Positions 6,127 through 61,514 of a stretch of 64,000 nt of DNA are shown here, one piece after another (within the stretch, counting starts at the first letter, position 1; every line of letters begins with the position of its first letter). The notes under the pieces were generated by a model, which was given only the letters and a program-made list of their open reading frames with translations, did no database searches and was not told the DNA's origin. The DNA lies in the NCBI RefSeq assembly GCF_006016075.1, contig NZ_CP040093.1, forward strand, positions 2,831,501-2,895,500, read 5' to 3'. The position numbers and the translations under genes were made by a program. The stretch comes from Caloramator sp. E03 (lineage in GTDB: Bacteria; Bacillota; Clostridia; Clostridiales; Caloramatoraceae).

Positions 6127-6164
6127 ATAGTAAGAAATCCGAGTAAATTAATATGAATTAAAAA

Positions 6165-6411
6165 CTATGATCAGGGAAAGTAAATTGTATGGAGTAGACA
6201 GAGAGAAACCCCGTGGCTGAGAGGGTTTTATACAGAAGTACAATTGAAGTGCCCCTGTGAGTTTTAGACCGAATCAAGTAGGTTGTTACGGGTTCTCCCG
6301 TTATAGGGATATGGCATGATTGTGCCAGATGAATGAGTTGGGCTTATGCTCAAACAGAGTGGAACCGCGGAATTAACCTTCTGCCTCTGTATACAGAGGC
6401 AGAAGGTTTTT
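6165..6411 (+). promoter_or_regulatory. T-box riboswitch (probably cysteine-specific) with terminator
   Basis: The canonical T-box motif GAGTGGAACCGCGG lies at 6357-6370. It is followed by the terminator AACCTTCTGCCTCTG / CAGAGGCAGAAGGTT (6375-6408) and T residues. The upstream stem I region has AGAGA and the long hairpin AACCCCGTGGCTGAGAGGGTT. The likely specifier is TGC at 6250-6252 (context GAAGTGCCCCTGTGAG), a Cys codon that agrees with the downstream cysK and cysE. Uncharged tRNA-Cys would stabilise the antiterminator and allow transcription. The specifier is read by context, not by a folded model. Confidence 0.93.
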
Positions 6412-15882: not shown

Positions 15883-15911
15883 TCCTCCTTTTACACCGTA
15901 AAACAGGAGGA
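15883..15911 (-). promoter_or_regulatory. Shine-Dalgarno-sequestering hairpin of the TPP riboswitch
   Basis: In the mRNA sense TCCTCC and TTTTAC pair with GTAAAA and GGAGGA across a GGT loop. This buries the thiT ribosome site (AAGGAGGA) completely. It is the expected OFF state for translational control when TPP is bound. Confidence 0.75.
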
Positions 15912-16010
15912 GAACTATAATGCTTCCCTTCGCTGGAATTACCCAGTTCAGGTTCAGAGGGTCGAAGGAGTGACCTTCCTCTCAGCTTAACGCTCCCCTA
16001 GCATACGGCG
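15912..16010 (-). promoter_or_regulatory. TPP (THI-box) riboswitch
   Basis: The minus strand reads CTAGGGGAGCGTTAAGCTGAGAGGAAGG, then GACCCTCTGAACCTGAACTGGGTAATTCCAGCGAAGGGAAGC. These contain the CTGAGA and ACCTGA signature blocks of the TPP aptamer. It sits about 40 bases upstream of thiT. Confidence 0.96.
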
Positions 16011-21324: not shown

Positions 21325-21479
21325 CTGGATGAAGCAAATATGAGAGACCCATTAGGGCGCCGAAGGGGTAAGTTGAATTCGCCAAATTCAATGATACTCT
21401 CAGGCAAAAGTATTATTTGCGGACAGAACTCTGGGAATGCAGAGAATGTAATGGTGATAGAGCTATTACATTCTTTTTT
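21325..21479 (+). promoter_or_regulatory. Glycine riboswitch (single aptamer) with transcription terminator
   Basis: The gcvT-motif blocks ATGAGAGACCC, GCGCCGAAGGGGTAAG and CTCTCAGGCAAAAG are all present. The outer P1 stem is GCAAATA (21334-21340) with TATTTGC (21414-21420), followed by GGACAGA. Only one aptamer is visible. The expression platform is a terminator, GAATGTAAT (21444-21452) with ATTACATTC (21465-21473) and then TTTTTT. It precedes grdX, so glycine most likely turns the glycine-consuming operon on. Confidence 0.94.
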
Positions 21480-25013: not shown

Positions 25014-26315
25014 ATGATTCGAGTAGTGCATTATTTAAATCAGTTTTTTGCTCAGATTGGTGGAGAGGAAAAGGCAAATATTCCACCTCAGGTTAAGGAA
25101 GGTATAGTAGGTCCTGGAATGGCTTTTAAAGCTGCTTTTAAAGGGGAAGCAGAAATTGTTGCTACGGTAATTTGTGGTGACTCATATTTTGCTGAAAACA
25201 GCTCAGCTGTTTTAGAAATAGTAGAAATGGTGAAAAAATATAATCCCGATTTATTTATAGCGGGACCTGCTTTTAATGCAGGTAGATACGGTACTGCATG
25301 TGGTACTATTGCAAAGGCTGTAAAAGATAATCTTAATATACCTGTTGTTACAGGTATGTATATTGAAAACCCAGGAGTTGATCTTTTTAAGAAGGATATA
25401 TATATAATTTCAACAAAGGATAATGCTTCGGGTATGAGAGATGCAGTTCCAAAGATGGCTGCTTTAGGATTAAAACTATTAAAAGGTGAAGAAATAGGAT
25501 CTCCTGAGGTAGAAGGATATATTCCAAGGGGCATTAGGAAGAACTATTTTGCTGTGGATAGAGCTTCAAAGAGAGCAGTGGATATGCTCGTTAAAAAGAT
25601 AAAAGGAGAGCCCTTTGAAACAGAGTTTGTTATGCCTATATTTGATAAGGTAGATCCTAATCCTGCTATTGAAGATATATCTAAAGTTAAAATAGCTCTT
25701 GTAACATCAGGTGGTATAGTTCCAAAGGGAAACCCTGATAAAATTGAATCATCAAGTGCAACAAAATACGGAGAATATAGCATTGAGGGAGTATATGATT
25801 TAACAGAGGAAACCTTTGAAACTGCTCATGGAGGATATGATCCCGTATATGCAAATAAGGATGCTGATAGGGTACTTCCTGTTGATGTATTAAGAGACCT
25901 TGAAAAGGAAGGGAAGATTGGTAAACTCCATGAAAAATATTATTCAACAGTAGGAAATGGTACAGCAGTAAAAAGTGCTGCAAAGTATGGTGCCGAGATT
26001 GCAAAAAAACTAATAGCTGATGGGGTTCAAGCTGTAATTCTAACTTCTACCTGAGGAACTTGTACACGTTGCGGGGCAACGATGGTTAAAGAAATTGAAA
26101 GAGCAGGGCTTCCGGTTGTTCATATGTGTACTATAGTTCCTATTTCAAAGACTGTTGGAGCCAATAGAATAGTACCAACGGTTGCAATTCCTCATCCTCT
26201 TGGGAATCCAACTCTTTCAAAGGAAGATGAAAAGCATTTGAGAAGAAAGCTTGTAGAAAGAGCTTTGAAGGCTCTTCAAACTCCAATTGATGGGCAGACT
26301 GTTTTTGAAGAATAA
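25014..26315 (+). CDS. grdB: Glycine reductase selenoprotein B (UGA-encoded selenocysteine 347)
   Basis: 433 residues with the TGA at 26052-26054 read as selenocysteine. The motif TSTUGTCTRCGATMVKEIE matches the substrate-binding selenoprotein of component B. Without readthrough the product would stop at 346 residues and the following 87-residue conserved tail (VPTVAIPHPLGNPTLSKEDE) would be orphaned. It works with GrdE to bind glycine; relatives accept sarcosine or betaine. The glycine assignment rests on the glycine riboswitch and operon order. A purine-rich GGGGGGA ribosome site precedes the ATG. Confidence 0.96.
26058..26085 (+). promoter_or_regulatory. Candidate bacterial SECIS hairpin in grdB
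   Basis: CGTTGC (26067-26072) and GCAACG (26076-26081) form a 6-bp perfect stem with a GGG loop, 12 bases after the TGA codon. Confidence 0.7.
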
Positions 26316-48155: not shown

Positions 48156-48506
48156 GGGGGCGTTTTGGCTTTCGACGGGGGTAATAGGGATTTAGGAAGC
48201 GAGTCGAGGATCCTGGTGCCTCGTTAAAAAACTGGGAATTAAATATAAACGCAAACGATAATTTAGCTCTCGCTGCCTAAGCTGCAGCGCGTCAGCCTGA
48301 GAGGCCCACGACTCAGAGTCTGGCGTCGACAGTGGGGTACCGAGCTCTACTAAGCTTTGCGTAGAGAACGGAATTTATGAAGCTACTGAACCTAAGAGCC
48401 TGTCTTTGGGCGCTTAGGAGAGGGAATGTTAAAACAAAGACTGCACTCGGAGATGCCTAAGTTTCTATGCTTTCGGACAGGGGTTCAATTCCCCTCGCCT
48501 CCACCA
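48156..48506 (+). ncRNA. ssrA: Transfer-messenger RNA (tmRNA)
   Basis: The 5' end GGGGGCG pairs with CGCCTCC before an encoded CCA (one G-T). GGCTTTCGACGGGG near the start and GGTTCAATTCCCC near the 3' end are tRNA-like domain hallmarks. The tag frame is GCA AAC GAT AAT TTA GCT then CTC GCT GCC TAA (48251-48280), giving ANDNLALAA after the charged Ala. It rescues stalled ribosomes and marks the products for degradation. SmpB is encoded immediately upstream. Confidence 0.97.
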
Positions 48507-50370: not shown

Positions 50371-50583
50371 GCAAGAATGGAAGGATATGCAATAGGAAGG
50401 CAAAATGGCTGGCTATCACCAAATGACATTAGAGAATTAGAGGATATGAACCCAATACCAGATGGCCAAGGAGGCGATATTTATCTTGTAAATGGCAATA
50501 TGATACCTGCAAATAAAGCTAAAGATGGGGAAGGTGGTGAAATATTTAATGGGACAGATGGAGAGAAGGACGATAAATCTTGA
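50371..50583 (+). pseudogene. Phage portal protein, C-terminal fragment
   Basis: ARMEGYAIGRQNGWLSPNDIRELEDMNPI followed by GGDIYLVNGNMIPANK is the characteristic end of HK97-type portal proteins. Only about 70 of roughly 400 residues remain; upstream sequence in frame is unrelated, so the gene is truncated at its 5' side near 50370. The portal is the dodecameric ring through which DNA enters the head. It precedes the prohead protease, as in intact prophages. Confidence 0.85.
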
Positions 50584-51169
50584 AGAATTAAGGGTTAATA
50601 ATACAAAGCAAGATAGTGACGAAGTCAGAGTTATTGAAGGACATGCAGCAGTATTTGATAAATGGAGTGAAGAATTGGGTCTTTTAGTGCCTTTCAAAGA
50701 AAAAGTCTTAAAAGGAGCATTTAAAGAGAGCATAGAGAAGGACGATATAAGGGCACTTTTTAATCATGATGCAAATTTTGTCCTTGGAAGAAACAAATCA
50801 GGAACTCTATTTTTAGAAGAAGATGAAAAAGGGTTAAAGGTTAGAATAATTCCACCAGATACTCAGTGGGCAAGAGACTTATTAGTTTCAATAGAAAGGG
50901 GCGATATTAGCCAGATGTCCTTTGGATTTACAGTTCTTGAGGATAGATGGGGCTATCAGGATGGAATAGACGTTAGAGAACTTGTAAAAGTAAAGCTATT
51001 TGATGTATCACCAGTAACATTTCCAGCCTATACTGAAACAGATGTTGGAGTAAGAACCATCTTAGATGAATACAACAGGCGAAAACAAACAAGAATTGAT
51101 GAAGAAAGGATGAAAAATATTAAAAAGTTGCAGTTATTAAAGAAAAAATATGAACTTTTAGGAAAGTAG
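50558..51169 (+). CDS. HK97-family phage prohead protease
   Basis: 203 residues from MERRTINLEELRV. RVIEGHAAVFDKWSEELG, FKEKVLKGAFKESIEKDDIRALFNHD with the catalytic His, and ISQMSFGFTV with the catalytic Ser are the S78/U35 protease blocks. It cleaves the delta domain of the capsid protein during head maturation. It overlaps the portal remnant by 26 bases, a normal phage arrangement. The start is chosen by family similarity; the ribosome site is weak. Confidence 0.88.
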   Translation: MERRTINLEELRVNNTKQDSDEVRVIEGHAAVFDKWSEELGLLVPFKEKVLKGAFKESIEKDDIRALFNHDANFVLGRNKSGTLFLEEDEKGLKVRIIPPDTQWARDLLVSIERGDISQMSFGFTVLEDRWGYQDGIDVRELVKVKLFDVSPVTFPAYTETDVGVRTILDEYNRRKQTRIDEERMKNIKKLQLLKKKYELLGK

Positions 51170-51193
51170 TGCTTAAATTAGGCACTTTTTTTA
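51167..51193 (+). terminator. Hairpin between protease and capsid genes
   Basis: AGTGC with GCACT, extended inward by TTA/TAA, followed by TTTTTTT at 51186-51192. The capsid gene begins 27 bases later. Confidence 0.65.
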
Positions 51194-51219
51194 TTACTTA
51201 AAAACAGGAGGTAGATAAA

Positions 51220-52485
51220 ATGGATAAGATTAAAGAAATGCAGGCAAAAAGAGAAGAACTGAGGCTAAAGGCAGTTGAACTTATTGAAAAAGCCGAAAGA
51301 GAAGGAAGATACCTAACTGAAGAAGAGGAACAGAGAATAAAAGAATATGAAGAAGGCATAAAAAGATGGGACGATACTATTGAAAATGTAAGAAAGTTTA
51401 TGGTGGTTGACACTGTGAAAGACAGAGAACCTATTCAAAATGAATCAGTTAAGGATGAAAAAAGGTTTAATTCCTTTGGAGAACAGCTAATGGCTGTGTA
51501 TAGGGCCGCTGCACCTGATGGGAAAGTTGATTCAAGGCTAACAACAAGGGCAGCACTTGGGCTTAATGAATCAGTTCCTTCAGATGGAGGATTTTTAGTT
51601 CAAAAGGATTTTGTATCAGAACTTTTAAAAAGAACTTATGAAACAGGTATTTTAGCATCAAGGGTTAGAAGAATACCAATATCAACTAATTCTAATGGAT
51701 TAAAAATAAACGCAGTTGATGAAACAAGTAGAGCCAATGGTTCAAGATGGGGTGGTGTTCAAACCTACTGGGAAAATGAAGCAGAACAGATTATATCATC
51801 AAAGCCTAAATTTAGAACTATGGATCTATCATTAAAGAAACTAACAGGTCTTTGCTATGCAACAGATGAACTACTTCAGGATGCTGCTGCACTTGAAAGT
51901 GTAATTAGACAGGCATTTGCAGAGGAATTTGGATTTAAAATTGATGATGCCATTATAAACGGAACAGGCAGCGGCCAGCCACTTGGAATATTAAACTCTG
52001 ATGCACTTGTAAAGGTTTCAAAGGATAATGGACAAACAGATATAATAACTGTTGAGAATCTACTTAATATGTGGGCAAGACTGTGGGCAAGAAGCAGGTC
52101 AAATGCTGTATGGTTTGTAAATCAAGAGTTAGAGCCTATTTTATACACCCTAAAGGTTGGAGATAAACCAGTGTATATTCCAGCAGGCGGATTATCTGAA
52201 GCACCATATGCTACACTTCTTGGAAGGCCAGTTGTTCCAATTGAGCAGTGCTCACAAGTTGGAGAAATAGGAGATATTATTTTAGCTGATATGAGCCAGT
52301 ATCTATTAATTGATAAAGGCGGAATAAATGCTGCAAGCTCAATTCATGTAAGATTCCTTTATGATGAGAATGTATTTAGATTTATTTATAGAGTAGATGG
52401 ACAGCCACTATGGAATAAGCCGCTAATGCCTTATAAGGGAAGCGGGGCAATAAGCCCATTTGTAGCACTTGCAAAGAGAAACTAA
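51220..52485 (+). CDS. HK97-family phage major capsid protein
   Basis: 421 residues. The first 100 are a charged coiled-coil delta/scaffold domain (EMQAKREELRLKAVELIEKAEREGRYL). The capsid body follows from about residue 115 (ALGLNESVPSDGGFLVQKDFVSELLKR), with IINGTGSGQPLGIL and GRPVVPIEQCSQVG in the A and P domains. It forms the icosahedral shell. Intact, with a good AGGAGGT ribosome site. Confidence 0.92.
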   Translation: MDKIKEMQAKREELRLKAVELIEKAEREGRYLTEEEEQRIKEYEEGIKRWDDTIENVRKFMVVDTVKDREPIQNESVKDEKRFNSFGEQLMAVYRAAAPDGKVDSRLTTRAALGLNESVPSDGGFLVQKDFVSELLKRTYETGILASRVRRIPISTNSNGLKINAVDETSRANGSRWGGVQTYWENEAEQIISSKPKFRTMDLSLKKLTGLCYATDELLQDAAALESVIRQAFAEEFGFKIDDAIINGTGSGQPLGILNSDALVKVSKDNGQTDIITVENLLNMWARLWARSRSNAVWFVNQELEPILYTLKVGDKPVYIPAGGLSEAPYATLLGRPVVPIEQCSQVGEIGDIILADMSQYLLIDKGGINAASSIHVRFLYDENVFRFIYRVDGQPLWNKPLMPYKGSGAISPFVALAKRN

Positions 52486-52499
52486 GGGGGTAATAGAGA

Positions 52500-52916
52500 A
52501 TGAAGATAGTTGATTTAAAAGTGCCAGGGACGATATTTTCATCACTTGTTAGCACAAATGAGATAGAACTTAAAAACTATAAGGAAGTAACATTTTTAAT
52601 AGAAAGTGGAGAAGGAGCAGAAGGGATATCTACAGTTACTATACAAGGTAGAAAAGGTGTAGATGGAGAGGCCCTTGATGTTCCTTTTTTATTTGCTGAA
52701 AAGAATAATGAGCTTGTTGAAGTTGAAGAATCAGGTAAAACAATAACAGTTGGTGGAACATCAGGTGCAGTCAAGTTTTATAGGGTAAAGGTAAGCGATA
52801 TGCTCTTAGCTTCAAAGGAAGTTGATAGAATAAAGCTAAATTTAACTAAAATTGACGGTTCAACTGTTGTAGGTGCAATTTATGCTATATTAGACAACCC
52901 AAGATATTCAGAATGA
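52500..52916 (+). CDS. Phage protein of unknown function between capsid and connector genes
   Basis: 138 residues, predominantly beta-strand, with no motif I recognise. Its place directly after the major capsid gene is where head decoration or fibre proteins are found. It begins 14 bases after the capsid stop behind AAGGGGG. Function not assigned. Confidence 0.6.
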   Translation: MKIVDLKVPGTIFSSLVSTNEIELKNYKEVTFLIESGEGAEGISTVTIQGRKGVDGEALDVPFLFAEKNNELVEVEESGKTITVGGTSGAVKFYRVKVSDMLLASKEVDRIKLNLTKIDGSTVVGAIYAILDNPRYSE

Positions 52917-52926
52917 GGGTGGTTAA

Positions 52927-53496
52927 ATGAATCTTAAGGTTATTGAAGGCCCTACAGATGAAGTTGTATCTTTGGAGGAAGCAAAGAGTCATTTAAGAAT
53001 TGATGGGGATGATGAGGACATCCTCATCTTTTCATATATTAAAGCCGCAAGGGAGTATGCAGAGATATTTACAGGAAGAAGCTTTGTAGAGAAAACTTAT
53101 GAGTATATAACAAATCCAAAAGAAAAGTATTCATATATTGAACTTCCAATGCCGCCTCTTATTGAAGTATTGGAAATTTTATATATTGATAAAAACAACC
53201 AAGAATTAAAATTAACCGAAGGATATGACTATTATATTCTAAAAGGATATGATGAAAGTTTAATATACCCAAGTTTAGAGAGAGGGTGGCCTAATGATAT
53301 TTTTGATTTGTTTGGTAATTTAAAAATAAGGTACAAGGCAGGTTATAGTGAAGCACCTATGCCAGTTAAGCAAGCGATACTCATATTAACATCTCACTTT
53401 TACGAAAATAGAGAGAACTTAACGATAAAGGACTATAAGGAAATTCCCTTTGGGGTATCATCACTTTTAAGACCATTTTGGGTTCCAAGGTGGTGA
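52927..53496 (+). CDS. Phage head-tail connector protein, gp6/YqbG-like
   Basis: 189 residues. VVSLEEAKSHLRIDGDDEDILIFSYIKAAREYAEIFTGR is the signature helical start of the HK97 gp6 family. PVKQAILILTSHFYENRENL near the end is also conserved. It forms a ring below the portal. Followed immediately by the head-closure gene. Confidence 0.88.
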   Translation: MNLKVIEGPTDEVVSLEEAKSHLRIDGDDEDILIFSYIKAAREYAEIFTGRSFVEKTYEYITNPKEKYSYIELPMPPLIEVLEILYIDKNNQELKLTEGYDYYILKGYDESLIYPSLERGWPNDIFDLFGNLKIRYKAGYSEAPMPVKQAILILTSHFYENRENLTIKDYKEIPFGVSSLLRPFWVPRW

Positions 53497-53500
53497 AAGA

Positions 53501-53827
53501 TTGAATATTGGTGATATGAGACACAGAATTACAATACTAAAACCAGTAAATGCTACTGATGATAATGGCTTTGAAACAGAAACCTATGAAAATTTTAGGA
53601 CAGTATGGGCATCTATATCAAACCTTCATGGCAGAGAATACTTTGAAGCTGCAACTTCAAATGCAGAAAAAACTGTAAAGTTTACAATAAGGTATATAGA
53701 TGGGATAGATAACAGCATGAGAATATCCTTTGGAGGAAAACAATATGAAATAACCTTCATAGATAATATAAAGTATGAAAATAGATTTATTGAAATAAGG
53801 GCTTTGGAGGTTGATAGCATTGGCTAA
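53501..53827 (+). CDS. Phage head closure protein (SPP1 gp16-like)
   Basis: 108 residues. INIGDMRHRITILKP at the start (here MNIGDMRHR) and FRTVWASISNLHGREYFEAATSNAEKTVKFTIRY are family patterns. TTG start, 7 bases after AGGTGG. The next gene overlaps its end. Confidence 0.85.
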   Translation: MNIGDMRHRITILKPVNATDDNGFETETYENFRTVWASISNLHGREYFEAATSNAEKTVKFTIRYIDGIDNSMRISFGGKQYEITFIDNIKYENRFIEIRALEVDSIG

Positions 53828-54218
53828 AATAGAGCTTGAAGGTATGCAGGAACTTATAGACAGAGTAAATAAACTTGGCACAAAGGGAGAAGTTATTAAA
53901 AAGAATACACTAATAAATGCAGGGACACTTGTTAAGAATGCAATGGAAAAGAAGGCACCAAGATCTATTTTAAATAAAAAACACATGGCGGATAATATTA
54001 AAATGTCAGATATAGAGAAGGAAAATGGAGTAGATTATATAAAAATAGGCCCAAATAAAGGGGATAATTCGGAGTTTTTTTATTCTAAATTTACTGAATG
54101 GGGAACAAGTAAAATTCCTGCACAGCACTGGGCTGAAAATTCTGTATTAGAAAATAAAAAAGAAATCAATGAAATTATTGTAGAAGAGTTAAAGAGGGGG
54201 CTTGAGGATGATTCGTAA
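53820..54218 (+). CDS. HK97 gp10 family phage protein
   Basis: 132 residues. MAKIELEGMQELIDRVNKLG, then TLVKNAMEKKAPRS and EWGTSKIPAQHWAENSV, match the gp10/tail-completion family. Start is TTG at 53820, 9 bases after GGAGG; it overlaps the closure gene. The family contributes to the neck or tail terminator. Confidence 0.85.
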   Translation: MAKIELEGMQELIDRVNKLGTKGEVIKKNTLINAGTLVKNAMEKKAPRSILNKKHMADNIKMSDIEKENGVDYIKIGPNKGDNSEFFYSKFTEWGTSKIPAQHWAENSVLENKKEINEIIVEELKRGLEDDS

Positions 54219-54534
54219 AATAATAGTTGAAGCACTAAAGCCTCTTAATGTTCCAGTTACCTTTCAAAAGTATAGCGGAAAAGCTGATACTTATATTACT
54301 TTCCATGAATATTTTGAAACGGGAGAAGAATATGAGGATGATGAAGAAACTTTAACAGCTCATTATGTTCAAATTGATATATGGTCAAAGAATGATTATG
54401 AAGAATTGGTGAAAAAGGTAAAAGAAAACCTGACAAAGATAGGCTTTAAAAGAATAAATGAAGTAGACCTTTATGAGGAAGATACAAAAATCTATCATAA
54501 AGGTCTTAAATTTTATTATCTTGAAGAAAGGTAA
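54208..54534 (+). CDS. Phage tail terminator/completion-like protein
   Basis: 108 residues. IRKIIVEALKPLNVPVTFQKYSGKADTYITFHEYF and VQIDIWSKNDYEELVKKVKENL are the pattern of small tail-completion proteins (DUF3168-like neighbours). ATG 54208 follows GAGGGGG by 7 bases. Located just before the major tail gene, the usual place. Confidence 0.75.
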   Translation: MIRKIIVEALKPLNVPVTFQKYSGKADTYITFHEYFETGEEYEDDEETLTAHYVQIDIWSKNDYEELVKKVKENLTKIGFKRINEVDLYEEDTKIYHKGLKFYYLEER

Positions 54535-54543
54535 GGTGATAAT

Positions 54544-55110
54544 ATGGCAAGGCAGATAGGGCTTAGAGATATTCATATAGCAAAGCTTACTAAGGACGAT
54601 TCAACAGGGGTTACTTATGAAACACCAATAAAACTTGAGAGGGCGATTAGTGCCAAGATAACACCTAAAATAACTTCTGAAAACATATATTCTGATGATT
54701 CAGTAGAGGATGTTATATCTTCCTTTGAAGGAATTGACGTTGAAATAGAATTGAATCAGCTTTCACTTGAAAGTAGAGCAATCCTACAAGGTGCCAAGGT
54801 TGTTAAAGGCGTTTTAATTGAAAGTAAAGATGATTTAGCACCAACAATTGCAATGGGTTTTAAATCCAAAAAGACTAATGGTAAGTATAGGTATGTGTGG
54901 CTTTTAAAAGGCAAATTTGAACTTGTATCAGATGAATATGATACTGAAGCAGAAAAGCCAAAGCCACAAAGTGCAAAGCTTAAGGGTAAATTTTATTCAA
55001 GGGATTATGATGGGAACTATAGGTTTATAGCTGATGAAGATAAACAGGGAGTGGATGCAAGTATTATAAATGGATGGTTTGATGCTGTGGTGAGTGAGCC
55101 CAATATTTAA
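54544..55110 (+). CDS. Phage major tail protein, phi13 family
   Basis: 188 residues. ARQIGLRDIHIAKLTKDDSTGVTYETP at the start, EIELNQLSLESRAILQGAKV in the middle and NGKYRYVWLLKGKFELVSDEYDTE are the phi13-type tail-tube signature. Intact. The tail chaperones and tape measure that normally follow are missing; a toxin-antitoxin locus takes their place. Confidence 0.9.
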   Translation: MARQIGLRDIHIAKLTKDDSTGVTYETPIKLERAISAKITPKITSENIYSDDSVEDVISSFEGIDVEIELNQLSLESRAILQGAKVVKGVLIESKDDLAPTIAMGFKSKKTNGKYRYVWLLKGKFELVSDEYDTEAEKPKPQSAKLKGKFYSRDYDGNYRFIADEDKQGVDASIINGWFDAVVSEPNI

Positions 55111-55118
55111 AATTTATC

Positions 55119-55147
55119 TTGCCGTAATGATTAAAAGGTTATATAAT
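55119..55147 (+). promoter_or_regulatory. Promoter of the type III toxin-antitoxin locus
   Basis: TTGCCG (55119-55124), a 17-base spacer and a consensus TATAAT (55142-55147). Transcription would begin near 55154, just before the first RNA repeat. Confidence 0.78.
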
Positions 55148-55162
55148 AAAATTAAAGAAAAA

Positions 55163-55278
55163 GACGGTGAAACCCAGCCGTATAAATGGGAGTTAAAAAA
55201 GTCGGTAAAACCTCGGCCGTATAAATGAGGAGTTAAAAAAGTCGGCAAACCCAAGCCGTATAAATGGGAGTTAAAAAA
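55163..55278 (+). ncRNA. Type III antitoxin RNA: three tandem pseudoknot repeats
   Basis: Three units of 38, 40 and 38 bases (55163-55200, 55201-55240, 55241-55278), each ending GGAGTTAAAAAA. Each can fold as an H-type pseudoknot. Stem 1 is CGGT or CGGC with GCCG. Stem 2 is CCCA with TGGG in units 1 and 3. In unit 2 both arms change together to CCTC with GAGG. The linker TATAAA is constant. ToxI-type antitoxins are tandem repeats of about 34-47 bases, cut by their toxin in A-rich linkers. A terminator and a ToxN-like gene follow at once. Confidence 0.88.
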
Positions 55279-55281
55279 GTA

Positions 55282-55312
55282 ATAGGGTAGCCTAAGTGCT
55301 ATCCTATTTTTC
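55282..55312 (+). terminator. Terminator between antitoxin RNA and toxin gene
   Basis: ATAGGGTAG (55282-55290) pairs with CTATCCTAT (55299-55307) with one G-T, then TTTTCT. In type III systems a leaky terminator here makes antitoxin RNA in excess over toxin mRNA. Confidence 0.85.
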
Positions 55313-55330: not shown

Positions 55331-55861
55331 ATGGCTAAAAAAATTTATTTATGCTCAATAGAAGACAAATATATAAATTATTTAAGAAAATTTGATGAAA
55401 TTGTTCTACTGAATAAAGATACTAAACGAAAATATGTAGGTGTCTTATTTCAAATAGGTAATTTTAATTATTATGCTCCCTTATCTTCACCAAAACCAAA
55501 GCATTTAAATATTAGCGATATGGCTCCAGATATATTTAAAATTGATAATGGGAAATTAGGAGTAATAAATTTAAATAATATGATACCAGTTCCGGAGTTT
55601 GAGATAATTAGAATAAATATTGAAGAAATTGAAGATGAAAAATATAAGAACTTGTTAAGGGATCAAGCGAGGTTTATAAACAAATATAGAGAAAAGATAA
55701 AGAAAAAGGCGAGGGTATTATATAGTATTGTGAATAGTAACTCTAATTCAAATTTGAATAAAAGGTGCTGTAACTATAAGTTACTAGAAATTAAATGTAA
55801 GGAATATGAAATGGTGGACTCTATTAAAAAAATAGCTGCTACATTAGAAAAAGATGAATAG
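55331..55861 (+). CDS. toxN: Type III toxin-antitoxin endoribonuclease, ToxN/AbiQ family
   Basis: 176 residues, close to ToxN and AbiQ. DKYINYLRKFDEIVLLN, KRKYVGVLFQIGNFNYYAPLSSPKPKH and KLGVINLNNMIPVPE are the family signature. S53 and K55 of PLSSPKPKH fall at the numbering of the ToxN active-site residues. The toxin cuts mRNA at A-rich sites and its own antitoxin precursor into single repeats; these bind and inhibit it. Such systems block phage growth or stabilise mobile DNA. AGGTGG lies 4 bases before the ATG. It sits as an insertion between phage tail and lysis genes. Confidence 0.93.
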   Translation: MAKKIYLCSIEDKYINYLRKFDEIVLLNKDTKRKYVGVLFQIGNFNYYAPLSSPKPKHLNISDMAPDIFKIDNGKLGVINLNNMIPVPEFEIIRINIEEIEDEKYKNLLRDQARFINKYREKIKKKARVLYSIVNSNSNSNLNKRCCNYKLLEIKCKEYEMVDSIKKIAATLEKDE

Positions 55862-55882
55862 ATATAAAATATTTATAGATTT

Positions 55883-55914
55883 AAAAAGCTTGCTGACGCA
55901 GGCTTTTTATTTTT
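55883..55914 (+). terminator. Terminator after the toxin gene
   Basis: AAAAAGC-TTGC pairs with GCAG-GCTTTTT around TGAC, giving an 11-bp stem and a T run. It closes the toxin-antitoxin locus. Confidence 0.8.
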
Positions 55915-56191
55915 AGAATGATTTTTGATTTTCAGGTAACTTAATGCGAATACCGTTTTTATCAAAAAAAGAAGCAAGAGTAGCACCTACTAAGGAAAAT
56001 AGTAAAAACAAAACTATATGCTATGTGTGGACTTTCAGAAGGCCTTATAGAATTACCTTGTGATTTATATCTTTTATATTCTACACCATCATCAATTAAA
56101 GAAAGGGAAACAAGATTGGATTTAGTCTCATTAATTAATGGTAATAGTTTACAAACAAGATTTAATTTATAAAAAAGAAAGGATGATAGAT
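55915..56191 (+). pseudogene. Degraded phage sequence between toxin gene and holin
   Basis: No intact gene. An ATG at 55944 after AGGT opens 39 codons reading MRIPFLSKKEARVAP; this resembles the start of a portal protein but is too short to be sure. A second frame, offset from it, reads GLSEGLIELPCDLYLLYSTP and ends at about 56172. That could be the tail of a deleted tail-assembly gene. The two frames probably meet at a deletion near 56020. Confidence 0.45.
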
Positions 56192-56589
56192 ATGAAATAC
56201 AACACAGTTCAACTTATCTCAGCTACCATAGGTGGTTATATTGGATATTTTTTAGGAGGTTTTGATGGTTTTATGTATGCACTTATAACCTTTGTGGTTA
56301 TAGATTATATAACAGGGGTTATGGTAGCGGTACTTGAGAGGAAACTATCAAGCGAGATAGGATTTAGGGGCATTTTAAAAAAAATACTTATTTTATCATG
56401 GTTGGAATAGGGAATATAATCGATGTTAATGTAATAAAAAGCGGTAGTGCAGTTCGCACCGCCGTTATTTTTTTCTACATTTCAAATGAAGGAATAAGTA
56501 TCATTGAAAATTCAGTAAAGATTGGACTACCTATACCAGAGAAACTAAAAGAAATTTTAAAACAAATAAATGAAGGGGGAGAAAAGTAA
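56192..56589 (+). pseudogene. Phage holin, frameshifted
   Basis: The first frame (56192-56410) gives MKYNTVQLISATIGGYIGYFLGG, VVIDYITGVMVAV and FRGILKKILIL, a toxin-secretion/phage-lysis holin N-terminus. The second frame (from about 56398 to 56589) continues with MVGIGNIIDVNVIKSGSAVRTAVIFFYISNEGISIIEN, the family's C-terminal half. A single missing base near 56395-56399 explains the break, because both halves then join as KKILIL-x-MVGIG. The holin would be inactive unless this is a sequencing error. Confidence 0.85.
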
Positions 56590-56978
56590 TGGCAAGGGTA
56601 TGTTTAGACTATGGGCATGGTGGAGAAGATAGTGGAGCAGTATATAAAGGAAGATTTGAAAAGGATGATAATTTAGAACTTAGTTTAAAGGTTGCAGAAG
56701 AATTAAGAAGGCACGGGGTTATTGTAGGTGAAACAAGAACTGCAGATACAACTTTAAGTTTAAAGGATAGAACATTGTTTGCAAATAAAGGAAATTTTAA
56801 CTACTTTATATCCTTTCATAGAAACGCCTATATGCCAGAAAAAACAAATGGTGCTGAAACGTATGTATATATAATAGGTAGAGAAAAATCAAAAGAATTG
56901 GCAAAAAAGATTCAAACCTCCCTTGTAGGCTTAGGTTTTGCAGATAGAAGAAACACATCCAGCAATAATCGATTTTGA
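56589..56978 (+). pseudogene. Phage N-acetylmuramoyl-L-alanine amidase, truncated
   Basis: Amidase_3 domain start: CLDYGHGGEDSGA (zinc His), KDDNLELSLKVAEEL and FISFHRNAY (zinc His). Homology runs to about GLGFADR near 56945; the last 12 residues come from another frame of recombinase DNA. The C-terminal catalytic Glu region and any wall-binding domain are lost. The start overlaps the holin stop, the normal lysis cassette order. Confidence 0.85.
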
Positions 56979-57435
56979 AACATTTCAAAAGGCACAAGAG
57001 ATTTTAAATAAAGGACGTGATAAATACTCATCAAAAGGCGAAGTTTCAAATCATATATTCCAAAGGAAAATAACATGCGGCATATGCGGTAAAAAGTATA
57101 GAAGAAAAAGAAGTAAAGATAAGTTTATATGGCACTGCTCTACCTATTTAAAATATGGAAAGGATGCTTGTTCATCAAAGCAGGTTCCTGAGGAAATATT
57201 AATCACAGCTTGCGAAGAAGTTTTAGGAACGAATGGATTTACCAAAGAAGAATTTGAAAACAAGATAAAGGAAATACAGGTGATAGATAAAGGGATAATT
57301 AACTTCATATTAAAAGATGGAAGGACAGTTAAAAAAGAATGGAGTTATAGACCACGAAGTGAAAGTTGGAGTGATGAAGCAAGGCAAAGGGCAAGAGAAA
57401 AAAGTCTTAAAAGATTAGAAGGGAGGAAAAACTAA
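56944..57435 (+). pseudogene. Large serine recombinase, C-terminal fragment
   Basis: The frame opens with IEETHPAIIDFETFQKAQEIL, which is internal to the recombinase domain of large serine recombinases (compare NSHPAIISPEVFDMVQ in the next gene). The zinc ribbon follows: ITCGICGKKYRRKRSKDKF and WHCSTYLKYGKDACSS. The N-terminal catalytic domain is absent, so the piece cannot recombine DNA. It joins the amidase fragment at about 56945. Its stop overlaps the ATG of the intact recombinase (TAATG). Confidence 0.85.
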
Positions 57436-59018
57436 TGGCAAGAGCCGTAACTGTAATACCAGCAACAGCGAATAATGTTTCTCCAATTACAAAGACAAAA
57501 GTAAATAGAAAAAGAGTAGCTGCTTACGCAAGAGTTTCAACCGATAATGAAGAACAGCTTCAAAGCTTTGAGGCACAGATGGACTACTATACAAGACATA
57601 TTAAATCAAACCCTGATTGGATATTTGTAAATGTCTATACAGATGAAGGTATATCAGCAACAAGCACAAAAAAGAGAGATGGATTTAATAGAATGATTGA
57701 AGATGCCTTAAGGGGCAAGATAGACCTTATAATTACAAAGTCCGTTAGCAGATTTGCAAGAAATACAGTAGATACACTAACAACAGTTAGAAAACTTAAA
57801 GAAAAAGGTGTAGAGGTATATTTTGAAAAGGAAAATATCTATACAATGGACAGCAAAGGAGAGCTTTTAATTACAATAATGAGTTCATTGGCTCAAGAAG
57901 AATCAAGGTCAATAAGTGAAAACGTAACTTGGGGACAGAGAAAAAGGTTTGCAGATGGTAGGTTTAGCTTGCCATATAAAAATTTTTTAGGATACACAAA
58001 GGGAGAAGATGGCTATCCTAAAATAGTTGAGGAAGAAGCTAAGATTGTAAGGCTTATATATAGAATGTTTTTAGACGGAAAAACTGCACTTAGCATAGCA
58101 AAGTATTTAACAGAAAACAAAGTTCCAACACCAGCAGGTAAAGGGGTATGGCATCAAAGCACAGTATTAAGTATTCTTCAAAATGAAAAATATAAAGGCG
58201 ATGCAGTGCTTCAAAAGAAGTTTACAGTAGACTTTCTTACAAAGAAGATAAAGAGAAACGAAGGGGAAGTTCCACAATATTATGTAGAAAATAGCCACCC
58301 TGCAATTATCTCACCTGAAGTATTTGATATGGTGCAGATGGAGATAAAAAATAGAAAAGGTGCAAGAGGGTATAAGACAGGTAGAAACTATTTTTCAGGG
58401 AAGATTATATGCGGTGATTGTGGAAGTTTTTACGGCAGAAAGGTTTGGCATTCTAATGATAAGTATAGGAAGGTTATCTGGCAGTGCAATTCTAAGTATA
58501 AGAATGAGGAAAAGTGCAAGACACCATTTATAAATGAAGAAGATTTAAAGAAGGCATTTGTTGAGGTGTTTAATGGGGTTATAAATAATAAGGAAGAAAT
58601 ATTAAGAGGGTATGAGGAAGTTGTAAAGGAAATTGTTGATGTTAAAGATTTGGATGAAAAAATATGTGAACTTGAAAATGAAGCAAAAGAAATTTTAGAT
58701 GAAATAAATAGGTGTATTCGTGATAACGCAACCAAAGCACAGGACCAAGAGGAATATATGACAAGATACAACGCTTTAGTTGAAAGGTATGAAAATATTA
58801 GAAAGTCAATTGAAGATGTTGAAAATGATAGATTTAAAAGGCTTGTAAAGAAGGATAGGATAGAGGAATTTATGAATGTTTTAAGAGATAGGGATGGGCT
58901 AATAAATGAGTTTGATGGAGAGCTTTGGAATATGGTTATTGAGGTAGTTAAGGTTTATGAAGGTGGTAAGATGGTGTTTGTGTTTAAAGATGGGGTGGAG
59001 GTGGAGTGGGGGATGTGA
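57435..59018 (+). CDS. Large serine recombinase (phage integrase)
   Basis: 527 residues. Catalytic resolvase domain with the nucleophile S35 in AAYARVSTDNEEQLQSF, then DEGISATSTKKRDGFNRMIEDA and ITKSVSRFARNTVDTL. Recombinase domain (GYTKGEDGYPKIVEEEAKIVRLIYRMFLDGKT), zinc ribbon (IICGDCGSFYGRKVW, IWQCNSKY), and C-terminal coiled coil (LDEKICELENEAKEILDEINR). It would integrate and excise the element. Intact, last gene of the prophage remnant; I could not identify its attachment site. Confidence 0.93.
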   Translation: MARAVTVIPATANNVSPITKTKVNRKRVAAYARVSTDNEEQLQSFEAQMDYYTRHIKSNPDWIFVNVYTDEGISATSTKKRDGFNRMIEDALRGKIDLIITKSVSRFARNTVDTLTTVRKLKEKGVEVYFEKENIYTMDSKGELLITIMSSLAQEESRSISENVTWGQRKRFADGRFSLPYKNFLGYTKGEDGYPKIVEEEAKIVRLIYRMFLDGKTALSIAKYLTENKVPTPAGKGVWHQSTVLSILQNEKYKGDAVLQKKFTVDFLTKKIKRNEGEVPQYYVENSHPAIISPEVFDMVQMEIKNRKGARGYKTGRNYFSGKIICGDCGSFYGRKVWHSNDKYRKVIWQCNSKYKNEEKCKTPFINEEDLKKAFVEVFNGVINNKEEILRGYEEVVKEIVDVKDLDEKICELENEAKEILDEINRCIRDNATKAQDQEEYMTRYNALVERYENIRKSIEDVENDRFKRLVKKDRIEEFMNVLRDRDGLINEFDGELWNMVIEVVKVYEGGKMVFVFKDGVEVEWGM

Positions 59019-59435
59019 ATAAACAAAAGAACAGAGTTTTAATTTTGATAATTTTATGACAACTCTTATTGAAAATATTTACAAAATGTCAAAGAAGTTC
59101 TAATATCTATATTAGAAACATGTACAATATTAATTAAGAATTTAAGATTAATTTTGGAAATTGGTTTATGGTTGCTCTTATAAACAAATATATAGTTTAA
59201 AGTATCTTTTATTTTAAAATTTACATTTAACGATTAAATATTTTTCTTACCAAAGCGGTAGAGATTTTGATTATGACATCTAGGATATGAAATTATATTC
59301 AATAATTTGCACATAATTTCATCTCTCTTTCGGAGGTATTTTGTTTTTTGCTATATATAAGATAAATCAAAGGTGAGATGAAATTTAAATATCATATAAC
59401 TTAACAAAACTATATGAATTAAAAGGGGGATTAAT
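59019..59435. other. 417-base intergenic region with an inverted repeat
   Basis: No gene. ATGAAATTAT (59287-59296) and ATAATTTCAT (59313-59322) form a 10-bp perfect inverted repeat with a 16-base spacer, and GATGAAATTT recurs near 59379. It could be an operator for the regulator that follows or an attachment-site remnant. I see no tmRNA-like end sequence here. Confidence 0.5.
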
Positions 59436-61514
59436 ATGATCTTAGAAAAAACCATTACAATAAATTATCATAAAGGAATTCATACAAGAATAGCTGCTAT
59501 GGTGGTTAAGAAAGTTAATAATATTAAAAAGGAATATAAAAATACTGAAATATATATAACAAAAAATGATAAAACAGTTCCGTTATCTAGTATGATATTA
59601 GTAGTTGGATTAAAAATTAAAAAAGGTGATAGTGTTACTATAAAGGTATCAAGCGAATCAGAAAATATCAGTGATATTTTAGGTGAAGTTTGTGATTATT
59701 TAACACAATCTGATTTTTATGAAGATGATGAAGAGGATGAGGTAGATAAGATTATTAACAAAGATGCTCTAACTTTAGAACAAATTTTTAACAGCATGGC
59801 CAATGCGGTTATATCAATTAATAATGAAGGAAAGATAACTTTAGTAAATATAGCTATGCTTAAAATTTTAAATAAGTCTATTGTGGAGGTTTTAGATGCA
59901 AATATAGATGATGTTATACCTAATTCAATATTACATATATTTAGCCTAAGTAAAAGACCACGTTTAGGGATTAAAACTAAAATAAATGGTATATCATTAT
60001 TGGGAAATTATACGCCAATTATTATAGATAATGAATTTAATGGAGTATTAGCTGTTTTTGAAGATATATCAAGAATTGAAAAAATAACTGATGAATTGAT
60101 TGAGGTCAGACAATTAAAAGAGGAATTACAGGTAATTCTAGATACTGTACAAGACGGAATTTGTGTAATTGACTCTACAGGTGTTATTCAATATGTTAAT
60201 GATGCATATTTATATATTGTTAAAGAAAATAGAAAAGATATTGTAGGTAAAAATATTAAAGAAATTTCTAAAAAAGGTATACGAGCTAAAGTTTTAGAAA
60301 CTGGGGAAAGTGCTATAGGAGAGATTATTAAAAAGAAAAATGGCACAACCATAATAGCTAATGTTACTCCTATAAAAATAAATGGAGAAATATATGGAGT
60401 TGTTTCTGTTATAAAGGATGTAACAGAAATAAATAGTTTATATGAAAAATTAATGATGTATGATGAAAAAAATAAATATTTAGAGGAGGAATTATTAAGG
60501 TATAGAAAACCCAATAGTGCATTTGATAACTTTAAAGGATATAGTAGTAAGACCCTAGAGGTTATAAAAATGGCTGAAAAAGCTGCAAGAACAAACTTTA
60601 ATGTCTTGATTTTAGGGGAAAGTGGTACAGGTAAAGAACTTATAGCAGAAGGAATTCATTATGCTAGTGACAGAGGTAAGGGACCTTTTATTAGAGTTAA
60701 TTGTGCTGCAATTCCAGAAAACTTGATTGAAAGTGAATTGTTTGGTTATGAAAAGGGCGCCTTTACAGGTGCTTTAAATAGAAAATATGGTAAATTTGAA
60801 TTAGCTAATGGAGGAACAATATTTTTAGATGAAATAGGAGAGCTTAATATAAATGTACAAGCGAAAATACTTAGAGCAATTCAATATAAGGAAATTCAAC
60901 GTGTTGGTGGAGAAGAACTAATTAAGGTTGATGTGAGAATTGTTGCAGCAACACATAGAGATTTAGAAGAAATGATAAGACAAAATACTTTTAGAGAAGA
61001 TTTGTATTATAGGTTAAATGTAATTCCAATTACTATTCCTTCACTTAGAGATAGAAAAGAGGATATTCCGTATTTAGTTGAACATTTTATTAATAAACAT
61101 AAAGGTAATTTTAACATAAGTGGAATAGATAAAAAGGTTATTGAAATATTATCAAGTTATAGTTGGCCTGGGAATGTTAGAGAACTAGAAAATGTTATAG
61201 AAAGAATATTGGCTATGATTGATGATAGAAAGTTTATTACAGAAGAATTGTTACCATTATACATAAAAAAAGGTGATTATAAAAATATAAATAAAGTAGA
61301 AAAGAAAGAAAAAGAAGGAGAAATTATAAAAATACTTATAGAAGAAGATATTTTAACTTGGAAGGAATATGAAAAGATAATAATTGAAAGGGCTCTAAAA
61401 AAATATGGAAGTTATAACGCAGCTGCAAAGGCTTTAGGATTAACACATAGAACTGTATCACTCAAAGCTAAGGAATATGGTATTGAAAAACTTGTGACAT
61501 GGAGGAAAAATTGA
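59436..61514 (+). CDS. Sigma-54-dependent activator with N-terminal HPr domain and two PAS domains
   Basis: 692 residues. 1-90: HPr-like domain with His16 in [11 protein letters not shown] at the phosphorylation position of HPr (GLHARPA) and Ser52 at the regulatory Ser46 position. About 112-220 and 230-345: PAS domains. About 370-600: AAA+ sigma-54 domain with Walker A GESGTGKE near 393, GAFTGA near 441 and [10 protein letters not shown]-terminal Fis-type HTH ([23 protein letters not shown]). It most likely activates the glpF-dhaK genes from the -24/-12 promoter downstream, sensing the phosphotransferase state through its HPr domain. That control logic is inferred. Confidence 0.92.

Follow-up and report, generated by a model that had tools for sequence, protein, structure and literature searches.

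Type III toxin-antitoxin systems are recognised by tandem antitoxin units followed by a terminator and then the toxin gene (PMC5086642). ToxN toxins cut RNA in A-rich sequence, at AAA/AA in the Bacillus system (PMC8860590). Homologous ToxN proteins cut the linkers between antitoxin units and form an inactive three-by-three ring with the resulting pseudoknots (PMC5086642, PMC8860590, PMC5772629). Five active-site residues have been described for the Pectobacterium toxin: Tyr29, Lys33, Thr52, Ser53 and Lys55 (PMC5086642). We analysed a 64,000-nucleotide stretch of the Caloramator sp. E03 chromosome (the window; all positions refer to it). In the window, three ToxI units, a terminator and an intact toxN gene follow one another in the order that matches the published recognition criteria, and a promoter-like site precedes the units (Table 1). 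We identify the locus as a type III toxin-antitoxin system of the ToxIN family.

The toxN product matches the Pfam family ToxN_toxin (PF13958) with an E-value of 3.7e-48 over residues 7-159 of 176, above the curated cut-off, and none of the other Pfam families. The PADLOC AbiQ model also matches it (1.4e-47), as do the sequences of four ToxN/AbiQ crystal structures, PDB 4ato (3.7e-23), 7d8o, 2xd0 and 4glk. The gene is full length and free of stops, and the motif GAGGTGG immediately 5' of it resembles a ribosome-binding site. An SSPK stretch in the toxin provides the equivalents of Ser53 and Lys55. Ser stands in place of Thr52 and Arg in place of Lys33, and the equivalent of Tyr29 is not clear. 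The nearest toxins among the homologues are those of loci L016 (65.9% identity) and L043 (62.3%), and the nearest repeats are found in the same loci.

Table 1. Features of the toxIN cassette, in window coordinates.
Feature	Position	Strand	Description and basis
Promoter-like site TTGCCG-17-TATAAT	55119..55147	+	10/12 consensus matches; such sites are equally frequent in shuffles of the region
ToxI unit 1	55163..55200	+	38 nt, predicted H-type pseudoknot; sequence, descriptor scan, covariation
Unit 1 stem 1	55165-55168 / 55177-55180		CGGU / GCCG
Unit 1 stem 2	55173-55176 / 55187-55190		CCCA / UGGG
AAAAAA linker	55195..55200, again 55235-55240 and 55273-55278	+	Probable ToxN cleavage site; sequence and A-rich cutting by ToxN homologues (PMC8860590)
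ToxI unit 2	55201..55240	+	40 nt; sequence, descriptor scan, same form in L002, L006 and L016
Unit 2 stem 1	55203-55206 / 55216-55219		CGGU / GCCG
Unit 2 stem 2	55211-55215 / 55226-55230		CCUCG / UGAGG
ToxI unit 3	55241..55278	+	38 nt; sequence, descriptor scan
Unit 3 stem 1	55243-55246 / 55255-55258		CGGC / GCCG
Unit 3 stem 2	55250-55253 / 55265-55268		CCCA / UGGG
Intrinsic terminator, antitoxin/toxin interval	55281..55308	+	11-pair stem and T-run, -13.8 kcal/mol, z -3.4
toxN	55331..55861	+	176 aa, intact; predicted ToxN/AbiQ endoribonuclease toxin
Terminator after toxN	55882..55909	+	12-pair stem with T-run

The three ToxI units, of 38, 40 and 38 nt, occupy positions 55163-55278, exactly as an earlier note on this DNA had placed and measured them. 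TRF independently recovers the array (55158-55280, period 38, 3.2 copies, score 186). The unit cores read CGGU-GAAA-CCCA-GCCG-UAUAAA-UGGG in unit 1, CGGU-AAAA-CCUCG-GCCG-UAUAAA-UGAGG in unit 2 and CGGC-AAA-CCCA-A-GCCG-UAUAAA-UGGG in unit 3. Stem 1 is kept throughout, and the arms of stem 1 and stem 2 alternate in 3/3 units, stem 1 coming first. Judged from these sequences, all three units can adopt an H-type pseudoknot, with both stems present in each. The earlier note had described this order correctly, with a linker that is UAUAAA rather than the ATAAA it gave. Its central observation, that stem 2 of unit 2 differs in sequence and still pairs, also stands. The change is not one of substitutions alone, however: the stem has five pairs instead of four, with one C-G pair changed to U-A, one pair inserted and the innermost A-U changed to G·U. 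Unit 2 is 40 rather than 38 nt long because the inserted pair adds one nucleotide to each arm. The unit lengths are indeed not multiples of three, and no open reading frame of 60 or more amino acids overlaps the array, although the lengths taken alone are weak evidence against a peptide repeat. Rfam gave no match to the repeats above the gathering score; it is uninformative here because the Pectobacterium ToxI control was unmatched too.

The cassette lies in the remains of a prophage. Upstream of it are genes for a head protease, capsid, connector, tail terminator and major tail protein (50525-55110). Locus L002 has the same gene order. Its major tail protein is 79% identical to that of the window, and 1965 bases of its DNA, running from the tail genes to the end of toxN, align collinearly with the window at 74%. 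In both L002 and L016, a tail assembly chaperone gene follows toxN. Because of this shared order and collinearity, and the chaperone gene in L002 and L016, we regard toxIN as phage cargo that, from its gene neighbourhood, occupies a slot shared with a related prophage, behind the major tail protein gene within the tail module. The window prophage has no tail genes past toxN; a holin, a truncated amidase and serine recombinases follow instead (55910-59018). The amidase is truncated at 56978, a recombinase fragment spans 56938-57435 and a full serine integrase spans 57435-59018. A search for att direct repeats flanking the prophage found none that were convincing. Just upstream of the prophage, Rfam identifies a tmRNA (48156-48506). 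The other Rfam matches in the window, at 6158-6391, 15908-16009, 21329-21425 and 26055-26092, are a T-box leader, TPP and glycine riboswitches and a SECIS_4 element. A dispersed repeat of ~190 bp lies at 59247-59439; the genome has ~15 copies of it at 84-92% identity, and there are many in a congener. Among the phage records (L059/L060), an unannotated ToxN gene is present in Clostridioides phage pCD1602_4, and the ToxN gene of Fusobacterium phage phiFN37 adjoins structural genes.

The loss of most tail genes and the truncated amidase raise the question of whether the cassette is a dead, unexpressed relic of the degraded prophage. We consider this unlikely. The toxN gene has kept its full length without stops and the terminator is intact. 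Furthermore, pairing has been kept in all three units, which suggests continuing selection. 

Homologous loci were gathered with the Pfam model in whole genomes, together with phage and plasmid records. Single-query toxin scans of viral and genome contigs gave no matches, whereas searches of whole genomes with the family model succeeded. When 29 units were aligned with MAFFT on sequence alone, stem 2 positions formed standard pairs in 94.5% of cells, compared to 72.1% after shuffling of the 3' letters (0/500), and sliding the stem 2 partner lowered pairing to 36-61%. With one unit taken from each of 16 loci, stem 2 was 95.1% paired, compared to 72.8% when the 3' arms were re-dealt (0/5000). 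The structure was then fixed, and in 20 hold-out loci stem 2 was 89.5% paired, compared to 71.9% when re-dealt (0/5000). Arm shuffles of this kind correct only partly for relatedness, but many families are represented among the loci and the two sets give the same result. The earlier note had named independent variation of the two stem 2 arms among homologues as the observation that would speak against its proposal, and in the 16 and 20 loci the arms varied together. The covariation is independent evolutionary support for the predicted ToxI pseudoknot, and in the literature searched we found no earlier report of such support for ToxI. Together with the ToxN/AbiQ gene downstream and the ToxIN layout, the covariation in two locus sets bears out the interpretation of the repeats as a pseudoknot antitoxin. 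Stem 1 gave almost no covariation signal in the 16 loci (505/5000 shuffles as good), because its GG/CC core is nearly invariant. The case for stem 1 pairing comes from conservation and known structures, not from covariation here. Four rows of the alignment in which loop 1 is longer were edited by one column for the stem 1 count, a step that stem 2 did not require.

Because stem 1 and stem 2 share no nucleotides, covariation cannot by itself show that both form at once, and the units could in principle be simple hairpins that alternate between stem 1 and stem 2 and never form both together, for example as a switch. Energy folding of single units without pseudoknots gave stem 1 for units 1 and 3 but stem 2 for unit 2. 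However, ToxI crystal structures from Pectobacterium, Bacillus and E. coli stack both stems in one H-type pseudoknot, and NMR of the free RNA shows pairs from both stems (PMC5086642, PMC8860590, PMC5772629). The loop lengths in the window resemble those of the solved structures. Alternating hairpins are thus very improbable. It is harder still to believe that the repeats arose by neutral tandem duplication, or form a repetitive toxN leader, and that their pseudoknot pairing is a coincidence: such pairing is modestly unusual in the window considered alone, where 1/60 dinucleotide shuffles score as well as the consensus unit, and a unit folded singly shows just one of the two stems, but neutral repeats are not expected to show stem 2 covariation in two separate locus sets, and the units are followed by a true terminator.

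Returning to the pseudoknot array, the compensatory change in unit 2 belongs to a broader pattern. In ten loci besides the window, we counted 15 distinct stem 2 changes within arrays in which the pair was kept by changes on both sides, compared to 4 apparent breaks. All 4 breaks adjoin insertions or deletions, where gap placement is doubtful. MAFFT scored the window's own unit 2 change as broken, with a gap in one arm only; the hand alignment is the better reading. With at least ten other loci showing compensatory stem 2 changes within an array, the change in unit 2 is nothing out of the ordinary in this family. The relatives also bear on the direction of the change. The closest ones, L002, L006 and L016, carry CCUC/GAGG, and the middle unit of L002 and of L016 has CCCC/GGGG. 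Because these three loci carry CCUC/GAGG, unit 2 is probably the older form in the window, which would make units 1 and 3 derived forms that have lost one pair. Among three-unit arrays of the first set in which one unit has an odd stem 2, a hand count placed that unit in the middle (ABA) in 10/15. The second set contributed only some three informative arrays, of which one was ABA, and the pattern is unconfirmed.

Gene identity, cassette layout, pairing with covariation and the shared prophage slot are seen directly in the sequences of this locus and its homologues. We are highly confident that the locus is a type III ToxIN cassette in a degraded prophage, with ToxI pseudoknots whose stem 2 arms change together and which by homology would restrain ToxN. 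How they would do so can be modelled on homologues, from which the transcription pattern, cleavage, toxicity, neutralisation, ring assembly and a role in phage defence or addiction are inferred. One transcript would begin shortly upstream of the units. Most transcripts would stop at the terminator, giving a free antitoxin precursor of three pseudoknots, and a minority would read through into toxN. ToxN, an endoribonuclease by homology, would cut the precursor in the A-rich linkers, the AAAAAA after each unit; by analogy, the linkers of the window fit the preference of ToxN for A-rich sequence. Each released pseudoknot would stay bound across the ToxN active site, and ToxN and three pseudoknots would assemble into an inactive three-by-three ring. 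A transcript with three complete units would supply enough for one such ring. If the supply of ToxI is halted by phage takeover or by loss of the element, ToxN would be freed to cut cellular RNA and growth would stop. The sequence of stem 2 would be free to alter in this scheme provided that both arms alter together, as they do in unit 2 relative to units 1 and 3.

The homologues also include arrays of unlike pseudoknots. Six loci (L021, L022, L024, L026, L028 and L056) each have three pseudoknots, ~60-240 nt upstream of the toxin, in which both stem 1 and stem 2 differ; stem 2 is UCUCA/UGAGA, UCUUG/CAAGA or UUCGC/GCGAG. Between the six loci, units at the same position are on average 90%, 79% and 77% identical (units 1, 2 and 3), whereas different units within one locus are ~50% identical. 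The units of these arrays keep separate identities between species instead of homogenising. TRF found no array in five of the six loci and a partial one in the sixth. Searches with a tandem repeat finder miss type III antitoxins with diverged units, as several loci have three pseudoknots and no TRF array. In the literature searched, coverage of which was incomplete, we found no report of such unlike-unit ToxI arrays. A tentative and rather doubtful generalisation would be that ToxI arrays need not be repeats, and that neighbouring units are free, or selected, to diverge into separate pseudoknots. If this is true, divergence may prevent mispairing or recombination between neighbouring units, or the units may play different parts. 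The window, where unit 2 differs from the other two, would then be a mild case and the six-locus arrays the extreme.

Compared with known systems, the window locus adds a prophage-borne ToxIN to the family. It shares its overall scheme with the other type III families, CptIN and TenpIN. It does not fit CptIN, as the toxin matches the ToxN model only and the units, at 38-40 nt, are shorter than the ~45 nt of CptI. The AbiQ/antiQ system of Lactococcus has a toxin of the same family, as the matches to the AbiQ model and to 4glk indicate, and units of window-like architecture with A-rich linkers are present at L064, a locus on a Lactococcus plasmid. The antiQ units are 35 nt long and present in 2.8 copies (PMC5086642), compared to 38/40/38 nt in the window, and antiQ is found on a plasmid rather than in a chromosomal prophage. 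The ToxIN systems of Pectobacterium atrosepticum, E. coli and Bacillus thuringiensis resemble the locus in their ToxN-family toxin, tandem ToxI units upstream and intervening terminator. At the RNA level, they have in common with it the H-type pseudoknot, the conserved GG/CC core of stem 1, an A-rich loop 2 and A-rich linkers. The window toxin is ~36-38% identical to the proteobacterial ToxN toxins. The E. coli ToxI structure has a base triple in which U12 is paired with U22 and the pair contacts G21 (PMC8860590). The window ToxI keeps U22 but has A or G at position 12 and A at position 21 in place of that triple. A strict coupling of positions 12 and 21 was suggestive at first and is contradicted by U12 with A21 in L009, L012, L051 and L052. 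The units of the studied ToxIN systems are 34-36 nt long, whereas the window has three complete units of 38-40 nt whose stem 2 sequence differs from one unit to another.
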